A stretch of 33,157 nucleotides of DNA from Alphaproteobacteria bacterium. Its GTDB lineage: Bacteria > Pseudomonadota > Alphaproteobacteria > RF32 > CAG-239. Numbering within the stretch: position 1 is the stretch's first letter; every line of letters starts with the position of its first letter. The position numbers were made by a program, and so were the translations under genes. This document shows positions 127-32,906 of the stretch, piece by piece. The DNA lies in contig JAFUYI010000038.1 in the NCBI GenBank assembly GCA_017470585.1, forward strand, positions 1-33,157. The letters are read 5' to 3'. A model generated the notes under the pieces. It searched no databases and was not told the DNA's origin. It saw only the letters and a program-made list of their open reading frames with translations.

Positions 127-392
127 TTTACATCAGCAATTTTTTATGCTAGGGTAAAAATTGAAGTGAATGAAAAGTCACTTTGGGGTCTCTAAGCCTC
201 TCATTCATCGTTTGTATCGAACGTATTCGGTATGTCCGGTTTTTATGGCCGGAAGGTTGTGGAATAAGCCAAATCAGACGAATACACAACACTATTATGA
301 ATGATAGTTTAGAGCTTCCGGCCACCTCGCGGGTTTTAATGCTCAACGGGTGGTTTCTTTTTTAAGACAAGAAACCATAAAAGGAAGTTTAG
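127..392 (+). promoter_or_regulatory. Structured leader RNA, copy 1, with promoter and attenuator-like terminator
   Basis: The promoter is -35 TTTACA (127-132), a 17-bp spacer and an extended -10 TGC-TAGGGT (150-155), so RNA should start near 161. The first hairpin is AAGTGA (164-169) with TCACTT (178-183). A three-way junction follows: P1 247-255/315-323 (GGCCGGAAG with CTTCCGGCC), P2 256-261/285-290 (GTTGTG with CACAAC) and P3 291-295/304-308. TCCGG at 235-239 can instead pair with 249-253. A terminator-like stem, CCACC 322-326 with GGTGG 349-353, is followed by a T-rich run and overlaps the 3' arm of P1. A further hairpin, GGTTTCTT with AAGAAACC, lies before the conserved AAGGAAGTTTAG ribosome-binding segment. 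Four other copies occur in the window. Ligand and function are unknown. Confidence 0.8.
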
Positions 393-2130: not shown

Positions 2131-2847
2131 ATGACTGACTATAAGCGCATTGTTATTTTAAGCGGTGCCGGAATTTCTGCCGAATCTGGCTTGGCTACTT
2201 TCCGCGATGAAGACGGGATGTGGAATCATCATCGGGTTGAAGATGTTGCCACCGTGGAGGGATTTGCCAAAAATCCCGAATATGTCCACGATTTTTACAA
2301 TGAACTGAAAAAAGAACTTATCAAAGCAAACCCCAACCCCGCCCATTTAGCCATCACACGCTTACAGCAACAATATCCGGCGCAAACGGCGGTTATTACC
2401 CAAAATGTTGATACCCTGCACGAAAAAGCCGGCAATCAAAATGTTTTTCATATCCACGGGCAGATAGATCAGGCAGTCTGCACAAACTGCGGGCATATTC
2501 TTTCCACATGGGATGATGTTACAACCGAGGATATTTGCCCGCAATGTTCGCTTACCGGGACTTTTAAGCCTAATATCGTTTTTTTCGGCGAAAGTTTATT
2601 GTATATGAACGAAGTTGATGAGCTTTTACGCAGTTGCGATTTATTTATTTCCATCGGTACTTCGGGTGTGGTTTTTCCCGCCAATACCTTCGTTCGTACT
2701 GCTAAATATTATCACGCCGACACAATAGAATTTAATCTTAAACCGACTGTCAACAATTATGAATTTGACCGTCATATAATCGGGCCGGCCGGCGAGACAT
2801 TTCCGAGGTTTGTTGAAGAGTTAATCAACGTCAATGAAAGTATCTGA
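2131..2847 (+). CDS. cobB: Sir2-family NAD-dependent protein deacylase
   Basis: The protein (238 residues from 2131) removes acyl groups from protein lysines using NAD+. The Sir2 signature is complete: GAGISAESGLATFRD near the N-terminus for NAD binding, TQNVDTLHEKAG, the catalytic His in HIHGQ, a zinc ribbon with two Cys pairs (C-x2-C near residue 120 and C-x2-C near 140), and the GTSGVVFPAN nucleotide-binding loop. Length matches bacterial CobB. The upstream ATG at 2125 touches the AAAGGA ribosome-binding site, so the ATG at 2131, 6 nt downstream of it, is preferred. The 3' end overlaps the next gene by 14 bp, indicating translational coupling. Confidence 0.93.
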   Translation: MTDYKRIVILSGAGISAESGLATFRDEDGMWNHHRVEDVATVEGFAKNPEYVHDFYNELKKELIKANPNPAHLAITRLQQQYPAQTAVITQNVDTLHEKAGNQNVFHIHGQIDQAVCTNCGHILSTWDDVTTEDICPQCSLTGTFKPNIVFFGESLLYMNEVDELLRSCDLFISIGTSGVVFPANTFVRTAKYYHADTIEFNLKPTVNNYEFDRHIIGPAGETFPRFVEELINVNESI

Positions 2848-4402
2848 ACTTAAATTTAATTTGCTTTTGGCCGTATTCCTAACTTTCGGCTATAATTTTA
2901 TTTTCTTTCAAAAGCTGTGGGAGAAAGCTCCGGAGTTTTGGTTTAATTTCGCTTTCGGATTGGTGGTGTGCGCGTTGATGATTGCTTTTTGCAATCTTTT
3001 GCTGTTTCGGTTTACAGCCAAACCTTTAGCCGTTACGGCGGTTATCTTAAATTCTTTTTGCCTCTGGTTTATGATAAAATACAATCTTGCCGTTGATAAG
3101 GTTGTTTTGCTCAATGTTTGGGAAAGCGATTTTAAGGAAGCCAAAGACCTGCTTACATGGAGTTTCGGCGGATTTGTGCTTTTGACCGGAATTATTCCGG
3201 CGGCAATGATTCTAAAATGCAAAATAGCATATCATCAAAATCTTTTCCGGCGTTTTGCTGTTGTTGCAGTAGCGTTTATGTTTTGTGTTGCGGTTATTTT
3301 TCCGAATTATAAAAACACAGCGCAATTTTTGCGCAATAACCGAGCGTTAAAATATTATCTTTTGCCGATAAATTACATCGGGGGTGTTATATCGGCCTGT
3401 AAAATTAAGCTTCGCAAACACCACGAGATAATTAAAATCGGCGAAGATGCCGTATTTGAGCCGCAGCGGCAAAATGATAAGAAAAATCTTTTTGTTTTTA
3501 TTGTCGGAGAAACGGCAAGAAGAGCCAACTTCTCACTTGCCGGATATGAACGCGCCACCGATAAGGATTTATTGGAATACGGCGACAACCTTTTATTTTA
3601 CAACAATTTTACGAGTTGCGCCACTTCAACGGCAATATCCGTTCCTTGTATGTTTTCAAATCAGAATCGCAGCCGATTTAATCCTGCAAGTGCCTCCTAT
3701 ACCGAAAATGTTTTGGATATTTTGCAAAAATCTGGATATAAAGTTTTATGGCGGGATAATAATTCCGGTTGCAAGGGAGTATGCAAGCGCGTAAAAAGCG
3801 AAGATTATGATAAATTAGGGCAAAACGATATGATTTTGCTTGATAAATTGGAAGAGGTTATAAAGCAAAACAATACCGATCAGTGGATTTTTTTACATCA
3901 GCAGGGAAGCCACGGTCCGGCTTATTATCGGCATTATCCGGCGGAATTTGGGATTTTTAAGCCCGATTGCCGCAATAAAAATTTATCCCGCTGTTCTAAA
4001 GAAGAGATTATCAACGCTTATGATAATTCACTTTATTTTTCCAACTATATGATTGCCCGAACCATTGAGCTTTTGCAAAAATTTGCAAAAGATTATAACA
4101 CCGCGCTTTTTTATGTTTCAGATCACGGCGAATCGTTGGGCGAAAAGGGCATTTACCTGCACGCCGCACCGTATATCATTGCTCCGAAAGAACAGCTTGA
4201 AATTCCGGTGGTTTTGTGGATTTCTTCGCAGACCTCCGAGGCATTGGGAGTTGATTTAGAATGTTTGCAATCTCACCGCAAAAACGCCTATTCGCACGAC
4301 AATATTTTTCATAGCATTTTAGGTTTAAGCGGGATTAAAACCGCTGAATACAAACCGGAGCTTGATTTGTTTTCTTACTGCCGCGTGGAGCCTAAACTTT
4401 AG
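2834..4402 (+). CDS. Phosphoethanolamine transferase, EptA/sulfatase type
   Basis: This 522-residue inner-membrane enzyme is predicted to transfer phosphoethanolamine to lipid A or another envelope glycan. About five hydrophobic helices occupy the first 165 residues, followed by a periplasmic alkaline-phosphatase-fold domain. The nucleophile is Thr227 in VGETARRANFSLAGY. HQQGSHGPAYY and the zinc ligands Asp430-His431 in VSDHGESLGEKG are diagnostic for the EptA/YhbX/Mcr group. Length is typical (about 540). It overlaps the cobB end, so the two share a transcript. Lipid A modification of this kind often confers cationic peptide resistance, which would suit a host-associated cell; the exact acceptor cannot be read from sequence. 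Confidence 0.88.
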   Translation: MKVSELKFNLLLAVFLTFGYNFIFFQKLWEKAPEFWFNFAFGLVVCALMIAFCNLLLFRFTAKPLAVTAVILNSFCLWFMIKYNLAVDKVVLLNVWESDFKEAKDLLTWSFGGFVLLTGIIPAAMILKCKIAYHQNLFRRFAVVAVAFMFCVAVIFPNYKNTAQFLRNNRALKYYLLPINYIGGVISACKIKLRKHHEIIKIGEDAVFEPQRQNDKKNLFVFIVGETARRANFSLAGYERATDKDLLEYGDNLLFYNNFTSCATSTAISVPCMFSNQNRSRFNPASASYTENVLDILQKSGYKVLWRDNNSGCKGVCKRVKSEDYDKLGQNDMILLDKLEEVIKQNNTDQWIFLHQQGSHGPAYYRHYPAEFGIFKPDCRNKNLSRCSKEEIINAYDNSLYFSNYMIARTIELLQKFAKDYNTALFYVSDHGESLGEKGIYLHAAPYIIAPKEQLEIPVVLWISSQTSEALGVDLECLQSHRKNAYSHDNIFHSILGLSGIKTAEYKPELDLFSYCRVEPKL

Positions 4403-13718: not shown

Positions 13719-13974
13719 TTGATTTAAATTTTCTTTTTGCTATAATGGTCGTGAAATAGGGAAAATCCTGTTTTGAAGTGTCGTAACTTCCTGTAAGGTG
13801 TCATATCAAGACATAAAAATGCTTTCAGTCGTGTTATGGCTGGAAGGTCGGGAAATATAAAGAATACCCGGCACTGTTCCTTACAGCAGTTACGAACTTC
13901 CGGCCACCTCGCGGGTTTTAATGCCCAACAGGTGGTTTCTTTTTTTAAGATAAGAAACCATAAAGGAAGTTTAG
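13719..13974 (+). promoter_or_regulatory. Structured leader RNA, copy 2, with promoter and attenuator-like terminator
   Basis: The promoter is TTGATT (13719-13724), a 16-bp spacer and extended -10 TGC-TATAAT (13741-13746). The 5' hairpins differ in sequence from copy 1, but a GAAGT/ACTTC hairpin is kept. P1 is GGCTGGAAG 13838-13846 with CTTCCGGCC 13897-13905 (one U-G pair), P2 is GTCGGG 13847-13852 with CCCGGC 13867-13872, and P3 is ACTG 13873-13876 with CAGT 13887-13890. The competing strand CTTTCAGTC (13822-13830) can pair fully with 13838-13846 in RNA. Terminator-like stem CCACCT 13904-13909 with AGGTGG 13930-13935, followed by a T-run, then the GGTTTCTT/AAGAAACC hairpin and AAGGAAGTTTAG. 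Confidence 0.82.
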
Positions 13975-14532
13975 ATGACAGCAAATAAAACTTTTTTAAT
14001 TCTTTTATTAACGGGCATAAGTTACACCGCCTATAATGCCGCGGCAATATCCGAGAACTTTGAGATTTCAACCACCATTGACCACGAAATAGTTTTAGGC
14101 AATTTCAAGGCCGCAAGCTCTGATGCCGATTTAGATGTAACCGATGATATAAATTTAGGCACGATTTATGTTAACCCGGTGTTCAAGGAAAACCATGCTT
14201 GGTTTAGCTATGACGAATTAGGAAAAATGAATAATGTAACAGGCGATTTTATTGTTCGGGCGGATCGTGCTGCTGCTGGCAGATTTACTGCCAATATCCC
14301 TAATCCGGAAGCTTGCACAAATCGAGCTACGTCCTGCGGAGGGTTAAGGACTACACAAGGTATAGCTTTGTTTGGTGGAAGTGCTTCAAGCAACTGGTGT
14401 AATTTTTACATAAAATACAGCGGAAACGATAATGTTTTCACGATATTGCCGAATTGTAGCTTGAATAATCTAGCCGCTATTACTCTCGGACTTCATACGG
14501 CAACTTTTACCATTTCTTACGATCCCGAATAA
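13975..14532 (+). CDS. Secreted beta-rich protein, family A, copy 2
   Basis: 185 residues, with a signal segment nearly identical to copy 1 (KTFLILLLTGISYTAYNAAA) and a mature domain that keeps STTIDHEI, GTIYVNP, GRFTANIPNPEAC followed by a SCGGL loop, and the terminal FTISYDPE strand. The region between about residues 60 and 85 and the SCGGL-to-C-terminus part differ strongly from copies 1 and 3. So the signal peptide and framework are conserved while probable surface loops vary. At least four Cys in the mature part could form disulfides. Expression is expected to depend on the leader at 13719-13974. Confidence 0.8.
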   Translation: MTANKTFLILLLTGISYTAYNAAAISENFEISTTIDHEIVLGNFKAASSDADLDVTDDINLGTIYVNPVFKENHAWFSYDELGKMNNVTGDFIVRADRAAAGRFTANIPNPEACTNRATSCGGLRTTQGIALFGGSASSNWCNFYIKYSGNDNVFTILPNCSLNNLAAITLGLHTATFTISYDPE

Positions 14533-20702: not shown

Positions 20703-21245
20703 TCAACTGGCTGTATAAGAGATAGTGATGGTTTTCGTGTGTTTACCGGGCTTGTAATAGGTAAGATTCATTGCTATACAATGTTGTGGATAAACCTTAA
20801 AAGTGTTTCCCGCTGAGTGAATAATTTGTAAATCACATTCATTACGACGATCATCATCACCGCTTAATATTCCGAAAAGTGCGCCATTATTCAAACCGTC
20901 AAATCCCAAACCACCGCAAGAAGATGACGGCGTATTGCAAGCAGAAGGATTAGCTATGTTTGCGGTAAAAGAGCCTAATGTGGTTCCGCTTACCGAGATT
21001 ATAGAATCTACTTTACTTGTAACGCTTCCCGAAGAATCCATATAAAATTCCTGGTTATAACAGCTAAAGCATGCACCAGCATCTATGGTAATGGTACCAA
21101 TATCTAAATCTTGAGTAACGCTCAAACTGGCATCGTGGGCGATTGTGGCGGTAACGGTCATTGTTGCCGAGTTGCCCGCGTATGCGCAGTATGAACCTAT
21201 GGAAACTGCGGCAACGCCAAGTAATAAAATATAATTTTTCATCAT
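20703..21245 (-). CDS. Secreted beta-rich protein, family B, copy 1
   Basis: 180 residues with a signal peptide (MMKNYILLLGVAAVSIGSY, cleavage likely after the Ala-Tyr-Ala that precedes Gly-Asn-Ser). The mature part begins with Ala/Thr-rich strands (TMTVTATIAHDASL), then DLDIGTITIDAG, GSFTANIANPSAC, a SCGGL loop, SAGNTFKVYP and the final TITISYTAS. Several Cys pairs could form disulfides. The motifs GTI-x-D, FTANI and a T-x-T-I-S-Y end link it to family A, so A and B are probably one superfamily. A DUF4402-type surface protein is possible but unproven. The first of two tandem ATGs is used, at the same distance from AAGGAAG as in the other copies. Confidence 0.8.
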   Translation of the reverse strand: MMKNYILLLGVAAVSIGSYCAYAGNSATMTVTATIAHDASLSVTQDLDIGTITIDAGACFSCYNQEFYMDSSGSVTSKVDSIISVSGTTLGSFTANIANPSACNTPSSSCGGLGFDGLNNGALFGILSGDDDRRNECDLQIIHSAGNTFKVYPQHCIAMNLTYYKPGKHTKTITISYTAS

Positions 21246-21489
21246 CTAAACTTCCTTATCTATTGTTAACAAAGAAAAACCACCCCGACGAACAGACGAG
21301 GTGGTTGGAAGTTGAAGACTGTTATGTGCAACAGTGTTGGGTATTCTTTATATTCCCCAACCTTCCAACCATAAAAGGCTGAAAGCATTTTACATCTTTT
21401 TGCAGATGGCACATAAGAGGTCTTCACACCTCAAAGTGACTTTTCATTCACTTCAAAACCACCCTAGCATAAAAAAACTTTTATGTAAA
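21246..21489 (-). promoter_or_regulatory. Structured leader RNA, copy 4, with promoter and attenuator-like terminator
   Basis: Minus strand: -35 TTTACA (complement of 21484-21489), 17-bp spacer, extended -10 TGC-TAGGGT (complement of 21461-21466). The first hairpin AAGTGA/TCACTT is followed by GAGGT/ACCTC. P1 is GGTTGGAAG (21362-21370) with CTTCCAACC (21303-21311); P2 is GTTGGG with CCCAAC (21356-21361/21336-21341); P3 is ACTGTT with AACAGT (21330-21335/21318-21323). The competing strand CTTTCAGCC (21377-21385) pairs fully with the first arm of P1. The terminator-like stem AACCACC/GGTGGTT (21300-21306/21278-21284) shares four bases with P1. The T-tract is interrupted (TTTTTCTTTG), unlike family A leaders. 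Confidence 0.82.
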
Positions 21490-24628: not shown

Positions 24629-24887
24629 TTACAAAATGATTCTTTTTTGTTATCATTGAGAGCGAAACGGAGGATTTTCGTTTCGGGGTTTGACGACCTC
24701 GCAAGAAGCGTTAGAAAAAACGTAAAGACTTTCAGCCGTATGTTATGGTTGGAAGGTGTGGAAATAAGGGAGACCAAATACCACACACTGTTCTTCTTGG
24801 CAGTCGTCAACTTCCAACCACCTCGCGGGTGAGTGCCCAAAAGGTGGTTTCTTTTTTTAAGATAAGAAACCATAAAAGGAAGTTTAG
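24629..24887 (+). promoter_or_regulatory. Structured leader RNA, copy 3, with promoter and attenuator-like terminator
   Basis: The promoter is TTTACA (24629-24634), a 17-bp spacer and TATCAT (24652-24657). 5' hairpins are CGAAACG/CGTTTCG and GGGGT/ACCTC. P1 is GGTTGGAAG 24747-24755 with CTTCCAACC 24811-24819; P2 is GTGTGG 24756-24761 with CCACAC 24781-24786; P3 is ACTG 24787-24790 with CAGT 24801-24804. The competing strand CTTTCAGCC (24729-24737) can pair with 24747-24755. The terminator-like stem CCACCT 24818-24823 with AGGTGG 24842-24847 is followed by TTTCTTTTTTT, then GGTTTCTT/AAGAAACC and AAGGAAGTTTAG. Confidence 0.82.
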
Positions 24888-25454
24888 ATGACAAACAAAA
24901 CTTTTTTAATTTTTTTATTGGCAGGCGTATCTTATACTGCCTATAACGCCGCAGCCGTTTCCGAAAATTTTGCAATCTCCACCACCATTGACCACGAAAT
25001 AACTTTGGGCAGTTTCAGAGCCGCAAGCACCGATGCTGAATTGGATGTGTTTTATGACTTAAATATGGGAACTATAGTTATCAATCCGGCGGCAACGGAA
25101 TTGACCGGCTGGATGTATGATAGAGGTGGTGCTTTTGACCTTGTGCTGGGAGATGCCGTAGTGTCAGCAGATAATCTGTATGAAGGCGGTTTTGATGCCA
25201 ATATACCAAATCCAGAGGCTTGTGATAGAGACTCTTCTTGTGGAGGATTGAGTATTACCGGAAATGACGGCAGTAGCATTTATAACATATTCGGCGGTAA
25301 TGATAGGAGCAATGTTTGCGATTTTAGGATACGCTATTTTTCAGGTACTACATTTGCCGTCACGACTCTTTGCACCATATTTCCGGGAGGAGCTTCCAAA
25401 ATAACGGCAGGACCGCACGAAGGCAGGCTGACTATTTCCTACAATCCGGAATAG
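24888..25454 (+). CDS. Secreted beta-rich protein, family A, copy 3
   Basis: 188 residues. Signal segment NKTFLIFLLAGVSYTAYNAAA, then STTIDHEITLGSFRAAS, MGTIVINP, GGFDANIPNPEAC with a SCGGL loop, and the terminal LTISYNPE strand. Compared with copies 1 and 2 the framework is kept but the segments around residues 60-90 and 125-165 differ strongly. Cys residues occur in pairs that could form disulfides. The gene lies alone between two convergent neighbours and is preceded by its own leader. Confidence 0.8.
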   Translation: MTNKTFLIFLLAGVSYTAYNAAAVSENFAISTTIDHEITLGSFRAASTDAELDVFYDLNMGTIVINPAATELTGWMYDRGGAFDLVLGDAVVSADNLYEGGFDANIPNPEACDRDSSCGGLSITGNDGSSIYNIFGGNDRSNVCDFRIRYFSGTTFAVTTLCTIFPGGASKITAGPHEGRLTISYNPE

Positions 25455-32133: not shown

Positions 32134-32649
32134 TTATAAGACATATTTTATGGTAATCGAGCCGGAATAATCTCCTGATGTCGGAACAACTCCTGGACCA
32201 TAGTTCCAAAAATCATACATAAAACTAAAAGTATTGCCGGAAATATATTCTACCGATGGTTCATAAATAATTGTATTTCCAAAATACAACTCTGTATCTG
32301 CCTCAAAACAGGGGTGATGATCTGCAGTTCTACTATCAGCAAAATTAGAAACTTTGCACGAATCGGGAACATTGGCGGTAAAAGTACCAGCGGAAAATCC
32401 GGTTAAAGATATAATGCCGCCGTTTTTACCAAGAATCGAGCCATTAGACGAAATATATATCTGCGCTTCCTCTATATTAGACGGGTCGATAGTTAGTGTT
32501 CCCATATTAAGAGGCGATGTTGCAACCAAACTAACATCATGAACGATCGTTGCGGTAACGGTCATTGTTGCCGAGTTGCCCGCGTATGCAGCGTAACTGC
32601 CTAATGCGACACCGGCAATACCGAGCATTAAAATATAATTTTTTATCAT
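32134..32649 (-). CDS. Secreted beta-rich protein, family B, copy 2
   Basis: 171 residues. Signal peptide MIKNYILMLGIAGVALGSYAAYA, then the same GNSATMTVTATI start as copy 1, PLNMGTLTIDP, QIYISSNG, GFSAGTFTANVPDSCKV, HPCF, EYISGNTF and the end SITIKYVL. It differs from copy 1 in the second half and lacks the SCGGL loop. Two fragments at 7599-8052 derive from genes of this subtype. Exported, probably at the cell surface; function unknown. Confidence 0.8.
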   Translation of the reverse strand: MIKNYILMLGIAGVALGSYAAYAGNSATMTVTATIVHDVSLVATSPLNMGTLTIDPSNIEEAQIYISSNGSILGKNGGIISLTGFSAGTFTANVPDSCKVSNFADSRTADHHPCFEADTELYFGNTIIYEPSVEYISGNTFSFMYDFWNYGPGVVPTSGDYSGSITIKYVL

Positions 32650-32906
32650 CTAAACTTCCTTATCTATTGTTAACAAAGAAAACCACCTGTTAGCTCTTTA
32701 GAGCCGCGAGGTGGTTGGAAGTTACGAACTGTCGAAAGAAACAGTGTAGAGTATTTGGTTAAACCTTATTTCCCTACCTTCCAACCATAGTACGGTTGAA
32801 AGCAATTTTTTGTCTTGTTATGACATCTTTCGAGAGGTTCGTACACCTCAAAGTGACTTTTCATTCACTTCAAAATTAACCTAGCATAAAAAATTGCGAT
32901 TGTAAA
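32650..32906 (-). promoter_or_regulatory. Structured leader RNA, copy 5, with promoter and attenuator-like terminator
   Basis: Minus strand: -35 TTTACA (complement of 32901-32906), 17-bp spacer, extended -10 TGC-TAGGTT (complement of 32878-32883). AAGTGA/TCACTT and GAGGT/ACCTC hairpins follow. P1 is GGTTGGAAG (32778-32786) with CTTCCAACC (32713-32721); P2 is GTAGGG with CTCTAC (32772-32777/32746-32751, one G-U pair); P3 is ACTGT with ACAGT (32741-32745/32728-32732). The competing strand is CTTTCAACC (32794-32802). The terminator-like stem AACCACCT/AGGTGGTT contains an extra inner GCTC/GAGC stem, and its T-tract is interrupted as in copy 4. Confidence 0.82.

Follow-up and report, generated by a model that had tools for sequence, protein, structure and literature searches.

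The locus considered here raises the question of what kind of RNA is carried by a structured leader that recurs through a window of 33,157 nucleotides (the whole stretch of DNA that was analysed), and of how it may act on the genes that follow it. The initial annotation described five such leaders sharing one fold. All five were found where it had placed them, each directly 5' of a paralogous gene, as judged from the sequence and from covariance-model matches (Table 1), but the count was incomplete: BLASTN gave at least 40 copies in the same genome, R1, a covariance model built from 26 of its leader copies, gave at least 150, and a pattern made of the P1' strand and the start of the terminator occurred at 252 places with at most one mismatch, versus 2 for the reversed control. 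The family totals about 250 copies in this gut alphaproteobacterial genome, which at a genome size of 1.55 Mb amounts to ~1 leader per 6.2 kb, so that five leaders in 33 kb represent the typical density. Among the sampled copies of this genome, the leader always lies just before a start codon with promoter-like sequence upstream, and a TATGCTA-like -10 element ends 28-30 nt before the core model in most of 92 leaders. Integron attC sites were considered an unlikely alternative, the copies being dispersed on both strands among ordinary genes, each directly before a start codon.

Table 1. Leaders in the window and parts of the focal leader (window positions; CM, covariance model)
Feature	Position	Strand	Basis or remark
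Leader copy 1	CM match 182-329; C4-like core 247-326	+	before gene 393-923 (start 393)
Focal leader (copy 2)	CM match 13772-13911; core 13838-13908	+	before gene 13975-14532 (start 13975)
Leader copy 3	CM match 24682-24825; core 24747-24822	+	before gene 24888-25454 (start 24888)
Leader copy 4	CM match 21297-21435; core 21300-21370	-	before gene 20703-21245 (start 21245)
Leader copy 5	CM match 32707-32852; core 32710-32786	-	before gene 32134-32649 (start 32649)
Promoter-like elements, focal leader	TTGATT 13719-13724; TATAAT 13741-13746	+	16 nt apart; sequence
5' hairpin GAAATAGGGAAAATCCTGTTTT	13753-13774	+	sequence and fold; stem letters vary, pairing kept in other copies
Hairpin H1	13775-13790	+	100% paired; loop contains segment a (TCGTAAC, 13781-13787)
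Segment b (TGTAAGG)	13792-13798	+	pairs with b' 13879-13885
Hairpin H2 (TGTC...GACA)	13799-13813	+	98.7% of cells paired; both-side changes in 3 of 4 pairs
Anti-P1 strand GCTTTCAGTC	13821-13830	+	can pair with P1 5' strand
C4-like core, 71 nt	13838-13908	+	3' end CCACC, TTAT directly 5'; covariation; sequence; RF02221 match 13838-13913
Core: P1 5' strand	13838-13846	+	covariation
Core: P2 with RAATA elements	13847-13872	+	covariation
Core: P3	13873-13890	+	b' within P3 loop; covariation
Core: a'	13889-13895	+	at P3-P1 junction; covariation
Core: P1'	13897-13905	+	covariation
Intrinsic terminator-like hairpin and T-run	13904-13946	+	5' strand has two nucleotides in common with P1'
Shine-Dalgarno sequence GGAAGTTT	13965-13972	+	complementary to AACTTCC of a'/P1'
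Secreted pilin-like protein gene, 185 aa	13975-14532	+	sequence; AlphaFold2 model is of paralogue 20703-21245

The P1, P2 and P3 helices, the terminator-like hairpin with its T-run and the RAATA...RAATA element in P2 are present in the five leaders as first described, and the proposal that pairing kept through sequence change reflects a selected RNA fold is borne out by the covariation. In the 26 copies, 98.0% of cells are paired and the covariation score is 0.518, against 0.177 for shuffles, which do not remove kinship, and 0.045-0.098 for slid partners, which keep the relatedness; the corresponding values for 99 distinct copies are 99.3% and 0.564, against 0.177 and 0.04-0.10, and none of 500 shuffles reaches the real score in either set. 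The covarying three-way junction was correctly recognized in the initial annotation, but the strongest covariation lies in two long-range helices that had not been seen, a:a' and b:b', in which both partners have changed in 11 of 12 pairs and no pair is altered on a single side (26 copies). Column identity is 0.36 in b and 0.50 in a, the latter carried in the loop of the GAGG/CCTC stem of H1, versus ~0.9 in P1, H1 and P3. Also missed was a competitor of P1, the anti-P1 strand, which can pair with the P1 5' strand (707 Watson-Crick, 141 G-U and 24 other cells over 99 copies, 16% G-U; the G-U share of P2 is 11% in the same set). The overlap of the terminator with the fold is real: besides the P1 5' strand, P1' has the terminator as a possible pairing partner for its last two nucleotides, position 8 of P1' covaries with the terminator 3' strand (C-G 85, T-A 8, T-G 1), and the hairpin between core and gene has a folding energy of -14.4 kcal/mol, versus -5.6 when shuffled. 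The leader being a structured RNA under selection, with a three-way junction and an overlapping terminator, is thus supported.

The initial annotation did not recognize the fold as a described RNA class, and no known Rfam class reaches its gathering threshold in the window; the architecture nevertheless corresponds to the C4 antisense RNA known from phages P1 and P7, and RF02221 (sRNA-Xcc1) matches over its full length below its cut-off. C4 comprises P1, P2 and P3 and is cut by RNase P before P1, with a' conferring specificity and b' covering the ribosome-binding site (PMC5320573); the part carrying a1 and b1 has been listed as motif 'c4-a1b1' by Weinberg et al. 2010 (PMC2864571). In the annotated phage P1 record, a1 (48255-48261) and b1 (48269-48276) precede C4 (48343-48419), followed by a2, b2 and icd. 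The window leaders show the same order and topology, namely a and b upstream in the same transcript and complementary to the variable a' and b', then a P1-P2-P3 cloverleaf with b' in the P3 loop and a' at the P3-P1 junction. P1 C4 starts with GGT after TTAT, ends with CCACC and is 77 nt long, and the window cores start with GG after TAT, end with CCACC and span 71-80 nt, a context that, judged from the sequence, would agree with the RNase P maturation site of P1 C4. As in immI, the RNA sits in the leader of the gene or genes that it regulates. The differences are equally clear, in that the window leaders have an intrinsic terminator between core and gene and number ~250 copies before surface proteins, whereas C4 controls icd/ant from one copy; control of a phage antirepressor operon was not found, 94 of 95 sampled copies preceding a secreted pilin-like family. 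The RF01695 (C4) model gave no match in this genome at E <= 1 and no leader reaches it, and R1 did not find phage P1 C4.

The link to sRNA-Xcc1, classed as a free-standing small RNA of 88 nt, is closer at the level of models. RF02221 aligns with the focal leader over positions 1-87 at 32.2 bits (cut-off 53) and gives 25 full-length matches in this genome (24.3-36.9 bits, best E 5e-5), none of which reaches 53 bits; no match occurred in 14 control genomes, and the nine matches beyond those listed for R1 are all leaders by R1. Reciprocally, R1 finds three sRNA-Xcc1 loci with matches over the full length of R1 (E 7.5e-4 to 0.012), and one locus in genome G248 is matched by both RF02221 and R2, an alphaproteobacterial model. 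Reports place sRNA-Xcc1 in Xanthomonas and further Pseudomonadota, where it precedes symE in integron cassettes (PMC12444791); among the papers searched, a single one names it together with C4 and, in the relevant passage, treats the two as separate families, and RF02221 carries no clan in Rfam 15. Our search found RF02221 matches in 58 of 398 sampled Pseudomonadota genomes, above the cut-off in 39. In 30 such loci the long layout consists of a in a hairpin loop, b, and a cloverleaf with b' and a', and the upstream a/b match averages 8.7 nt within a locus versus 5.9 nt across loci. A second a and b often flank the Shine-Dalgarno sequence, as in locus L108, with CCGAAAAC and CAACAAG upstream and CCGAAAA-GGAG-CAACAAG before the ATG; this downstream match is 6.97 nt self versus 5.35 cross. 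With these loci as positive control, a2/b2 around the ribosome-binding site are absent from the leaders of the window genome (5.16 nt self versus 5.21 cross). The window RNAs thus resemble sRNA-Xcc1 in the P1-P2-P3 core, the RAATA-type elements in P2, the upstream a and b and the full-length model match at 24-37 bits, but differ in that sRNA-Xcc1 loci keep a2/b2 and occur in few copies per genome.

As a side observation on these 30 loci, sRNA-Xcc1 seems to be the 3' portion of a longer leader of C4 type, in which a1/b1 lie upstream and a2/b2 often surround the ribosome-binding site. The genes that follow appear to be phage antirepressor (Bro-N, KilA-N, P22_AR_N, Rha) or symE genes, seven of nine scanned downstream proteins being SymE, Bro-N (two), KilA-N, P22_AR_N and Rha (two).

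Taken with the phage record, the three-way junction of the leaders is the C4 cloverleaf, and we are confident that the leader is a C4-type RNA of shared origin. Since some of the tested features fail, we do not file the leaders as RF01695 or RF02221, although they very probably work like a C4-type RNA and share its origin. Without a2/b2 at the ribosome-binding site, the family cannot simply be assumed to act as the phage RNA does. In their place, the leaders have GGAAGTT as Shine-Dalgarno sequence, which is unusual and forms the complement of AACTTCC in a'/P1'; GGAAGT occurs in 87 of 92 leaders of this genome and GGAAG upstream of none of 20 other window ORFs. In relatives, the Shine-Dalgarno sequence mostly tracks P1' (CTTCC/GGAAG, CCTCC/GGAGG, CTCCC/GGGAG or GGAG), with exceptions in which the two are mismatched, and GGAGG is also a common default. 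It is also of note that the U-tract 3' of the terminator can base-pair with AAGAAACC just 5' of the Shine-Dalgarno sequence (GGTTTCTT...AAGAAACC, window 13936-13964), as in other copies before the KTFLILLL subfamily of proteins, different sequences being found there in the other subfamily.

The genes behind the leaders form essentially one group. The 94 of 95 sampled leaders with an ORF noted above (including two, L147 and L155, set aside by a strict motif test) precede members of a single family, proteins of 140-200 aa whose N termini resemble signal peptides, the sole sampled exception lying before a lipoprotein of PEGA type similar to those found in relatives. Pfam and PDB sequence searches gave no Pfam domain at cut-off for this family, with weak similarity to DUF4402/SCPU in few members. 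The AlphaFold2 model of the paralogue at 20703-21245 (pLDDT 86.9) shows an N-terminal helix and a beta-sandwich, for which Foldseek returned nothing significant and VIA-align ranked chaperone-usher pilins first (Caf1, PapK, PapE; Z 4.5-5.4), which may mean only a common arrangement; Caf1, the best structural neighbour, is a weak match (Z 5.4, rmsd 3.4 over 110 residues). Lying among the surface genes, an EptA/EptB-like phosphoethanolamine transferase gene at 2834-4402 (Pfam Sulfatase, EptA_B_N) adds a further envelope-modifying function.

The most distinctive property of the family is the sequence of a and b, which gives nearly every copy a code of its own. Across 99 distinct copies, a:a' comprises 487 Watson-Crick, 1 G-U and 2 other cells and b:b' 678, 3 and 3. 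Among 96 complete leaders, 95 different a+b sequences occur and 93 match themselves at all 12 code positions, whereas the mean match across copies is 5.05 of 12 and is complete in 2 of 9120 ordered pairs, both due to a single recently duplicated leader (window 182-329; contig C101). That nearly every copy has a self-matching code of its own points to separate, RNA-based control of the individual surface genes. The code also diverges in its own way: leaders at least 96% identical elsewhere already differ at half of it, and its difference is nearly independent of divergence elsewhere (r -0.12, versus -0.46 for P2). Because code difference hardly tracks divergence elsewhere, stepwise compensation through G-U is unlikely to be the sole source of the codes; neutral compensatory evolution as the only origin of the a/b helices is likewise disfavoured by the near absence of G-U intermediates and by transitions making up 21 of 79 single-pair differences in b. 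A better fit, we infer, would be homogenization of the rest of the leader by gene conversion together with selection for self-matching, distinct codes, or else active diversification, and the nested a-b...b'-a' order would let b and b' move together.

These observations lead us to favour the reading that the leader is a domesticated, immI-like C4-type switch with cis-acting control of the downstream gene, which we consider probable. The pairings that it draws on are those that covary; which fold would be ON and which OFF, and whether RNase P cutting, termination and trans action take place, we infer from them, and the logic proposed here is possible but tentative. The nascent leader would choose between two folds. 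In the OFF fold, a:a', b:b' and anti-P1:P1-5' would form and hold the core open, leaving P1' free to cover the Shine-Dalgarno sequence, and the terminator, as a second gate, would end most transcripts. In the ON fold, the cloverleaf would form and P1' would be taken up in P1, freeing the Shine-Dalgarno sequence, and RNase P could cut before P1 and permanently remove the inhibitory arm. When folds are compared by nested energies, a calculation that ignores pseudoknots and kinetics, 88 of 92 leaders favour the structure containing a:a', b:b' and anti-P1 over the one containing P1, the mean difference being 9.8 kcal/mol. The code differences would keep the ~250 leaders, and any C4-like RNAs released from them, acting only on themselves without cross-talk. 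More speculatively, and with considerable doubt on our part, the genome may hold ~250 mutually orthogonal, barcoded C4-type switches giving each pilin-like gene an on/off control addressed to itself, which might even be inherited if released C4-like RNA acted back on leaders of the same code, that is, RNA-coded surface variation derived from phage immunity.

A cis-acting switch has to be weighed against a set of trans-acting sRNAs, in which terminated, RNase P-processed C4-like RNAs would regulate other mRNAs through a' and b' and the downstream gene would be read through at times. C4 of P1/P7 acts in trans, and both a terminator and an RNase P-type site are present in the leaders. In A. baumannii AB5075, the Group 1 set of 21 C4-like sRNAs has variable a' sequences and apparent processing at GGW, and trans regulation has been proposed for it (PMC5320573). 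The window RNAs share with Group 1 being multi-copy, chromosomal and of C4 type, but Group 1 has been described as sRNAs without known targets rather than as leaders of one surface-protein family, with no self-matching upstream code reported and an order of magnitude fewer copies. Moreover, the best partner of each code is its own upstream a/b (perfect in 93 of 96), almost every copy is followed by a protein gene that has the matching Shine-Dalgarno sequence, and code targets elsewhere in the stretches around leaders, which cover part of the genome, numbered 120 against 84-135 for reshuffled codes, with no excess. We therefore regard trans action as the main role of the leaders as unlikely.

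Two further readings were weighed. If the junction and the RAATA/RAATA elements bound a metabolite or protein that stabilized P1 and so controlled the terminator, the leader would be a ligand-binding riboswitch and a:a' and b:b' ordinary tertiary contacts; the conserved junction with RAATA and the competition of P1 with anti-P1 and with the terminator do resemble expression platforms. Such a device would have no need of near-unique, almost purely Watson-Crick codes that do not track divergence elsewhere, its closest relatives are antisense RNAs, the regulated genes encode surface structures rather than one pathway, and no Rfam riboswitch matched the window leaders, which makes this reading quite improbable. 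Alternatively, the leader could be mainly a DNA feature, with conserved flanks that stimulate conversion between surface genes and hence antigenic variation by recombination, and with an RNA fold left over as a remnant. Pairs of leaders that are 96-98% identical apart from the code do bear different codes, some pairs have b in common but not a, as conversion of a b...b' block would give, and leader L168 is a chimera with a broken code. Yet 93 of 96 copies show Watson-Crick matches at 12 of 12 positions, which a remnant would have lost, and relatives with 1-10 copies keep the fold before unrelated genes, so that we hold this last reading to be very improbable, while gene conversion at the leaders may well be a secondary process. 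L168 (201-348) lies at a contig end, and its upstream half and C4-like core carry non-matching codes, which could reflect a natural recombinant or an assembly join.

If the preferred reading of a domesticated C4-type switch is true, a phage immunity RNA now serves cellular bacteria as a regulatory code across the genome, each gene having a near-unique Watson-Crick code, with ~1 copy every 6 kb. The comparison also ties sRNA-Xcc1, a family of poorly understood function, to the C4 mechanism through a1/b1 and a2/b2 before antirepressors and symE, and the family offers a tractable case for how many orthogonal RNA-RNA specificities arise and stay apart in one cell.

The leader is not confined to this genome. 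A search of related genomes with a covariance model found it in 74 of 101 genomes of the family and in 16 of 240 sampled across the class, the named relatives being uncultured gut Alphaproteobacteria of rabbits, ruminants and deer. Relatives mostly carry 1-10 copies per genome, before outer-membrane beta-barrel, lipoprotein, glycosyltransferase, pilin-like and PMP-repeat genes. One genome, G009, has three short tandem leaders without H2 (L070, 1501-1623, 1747-1870 and 1995-2119), ~120 nt apart and therefore with no gene between them. In genome G440 (L264-L273) and in the rabbit-gut MAGs CANQUX and CANREI (L171-L250), the leaders are multi-copy and precede type IV pilin-like proteins; these are separate expansions, with the N-terminal motif RSMIEMLGVLAIIGVLS or RSMVEMLGVLAIIG.
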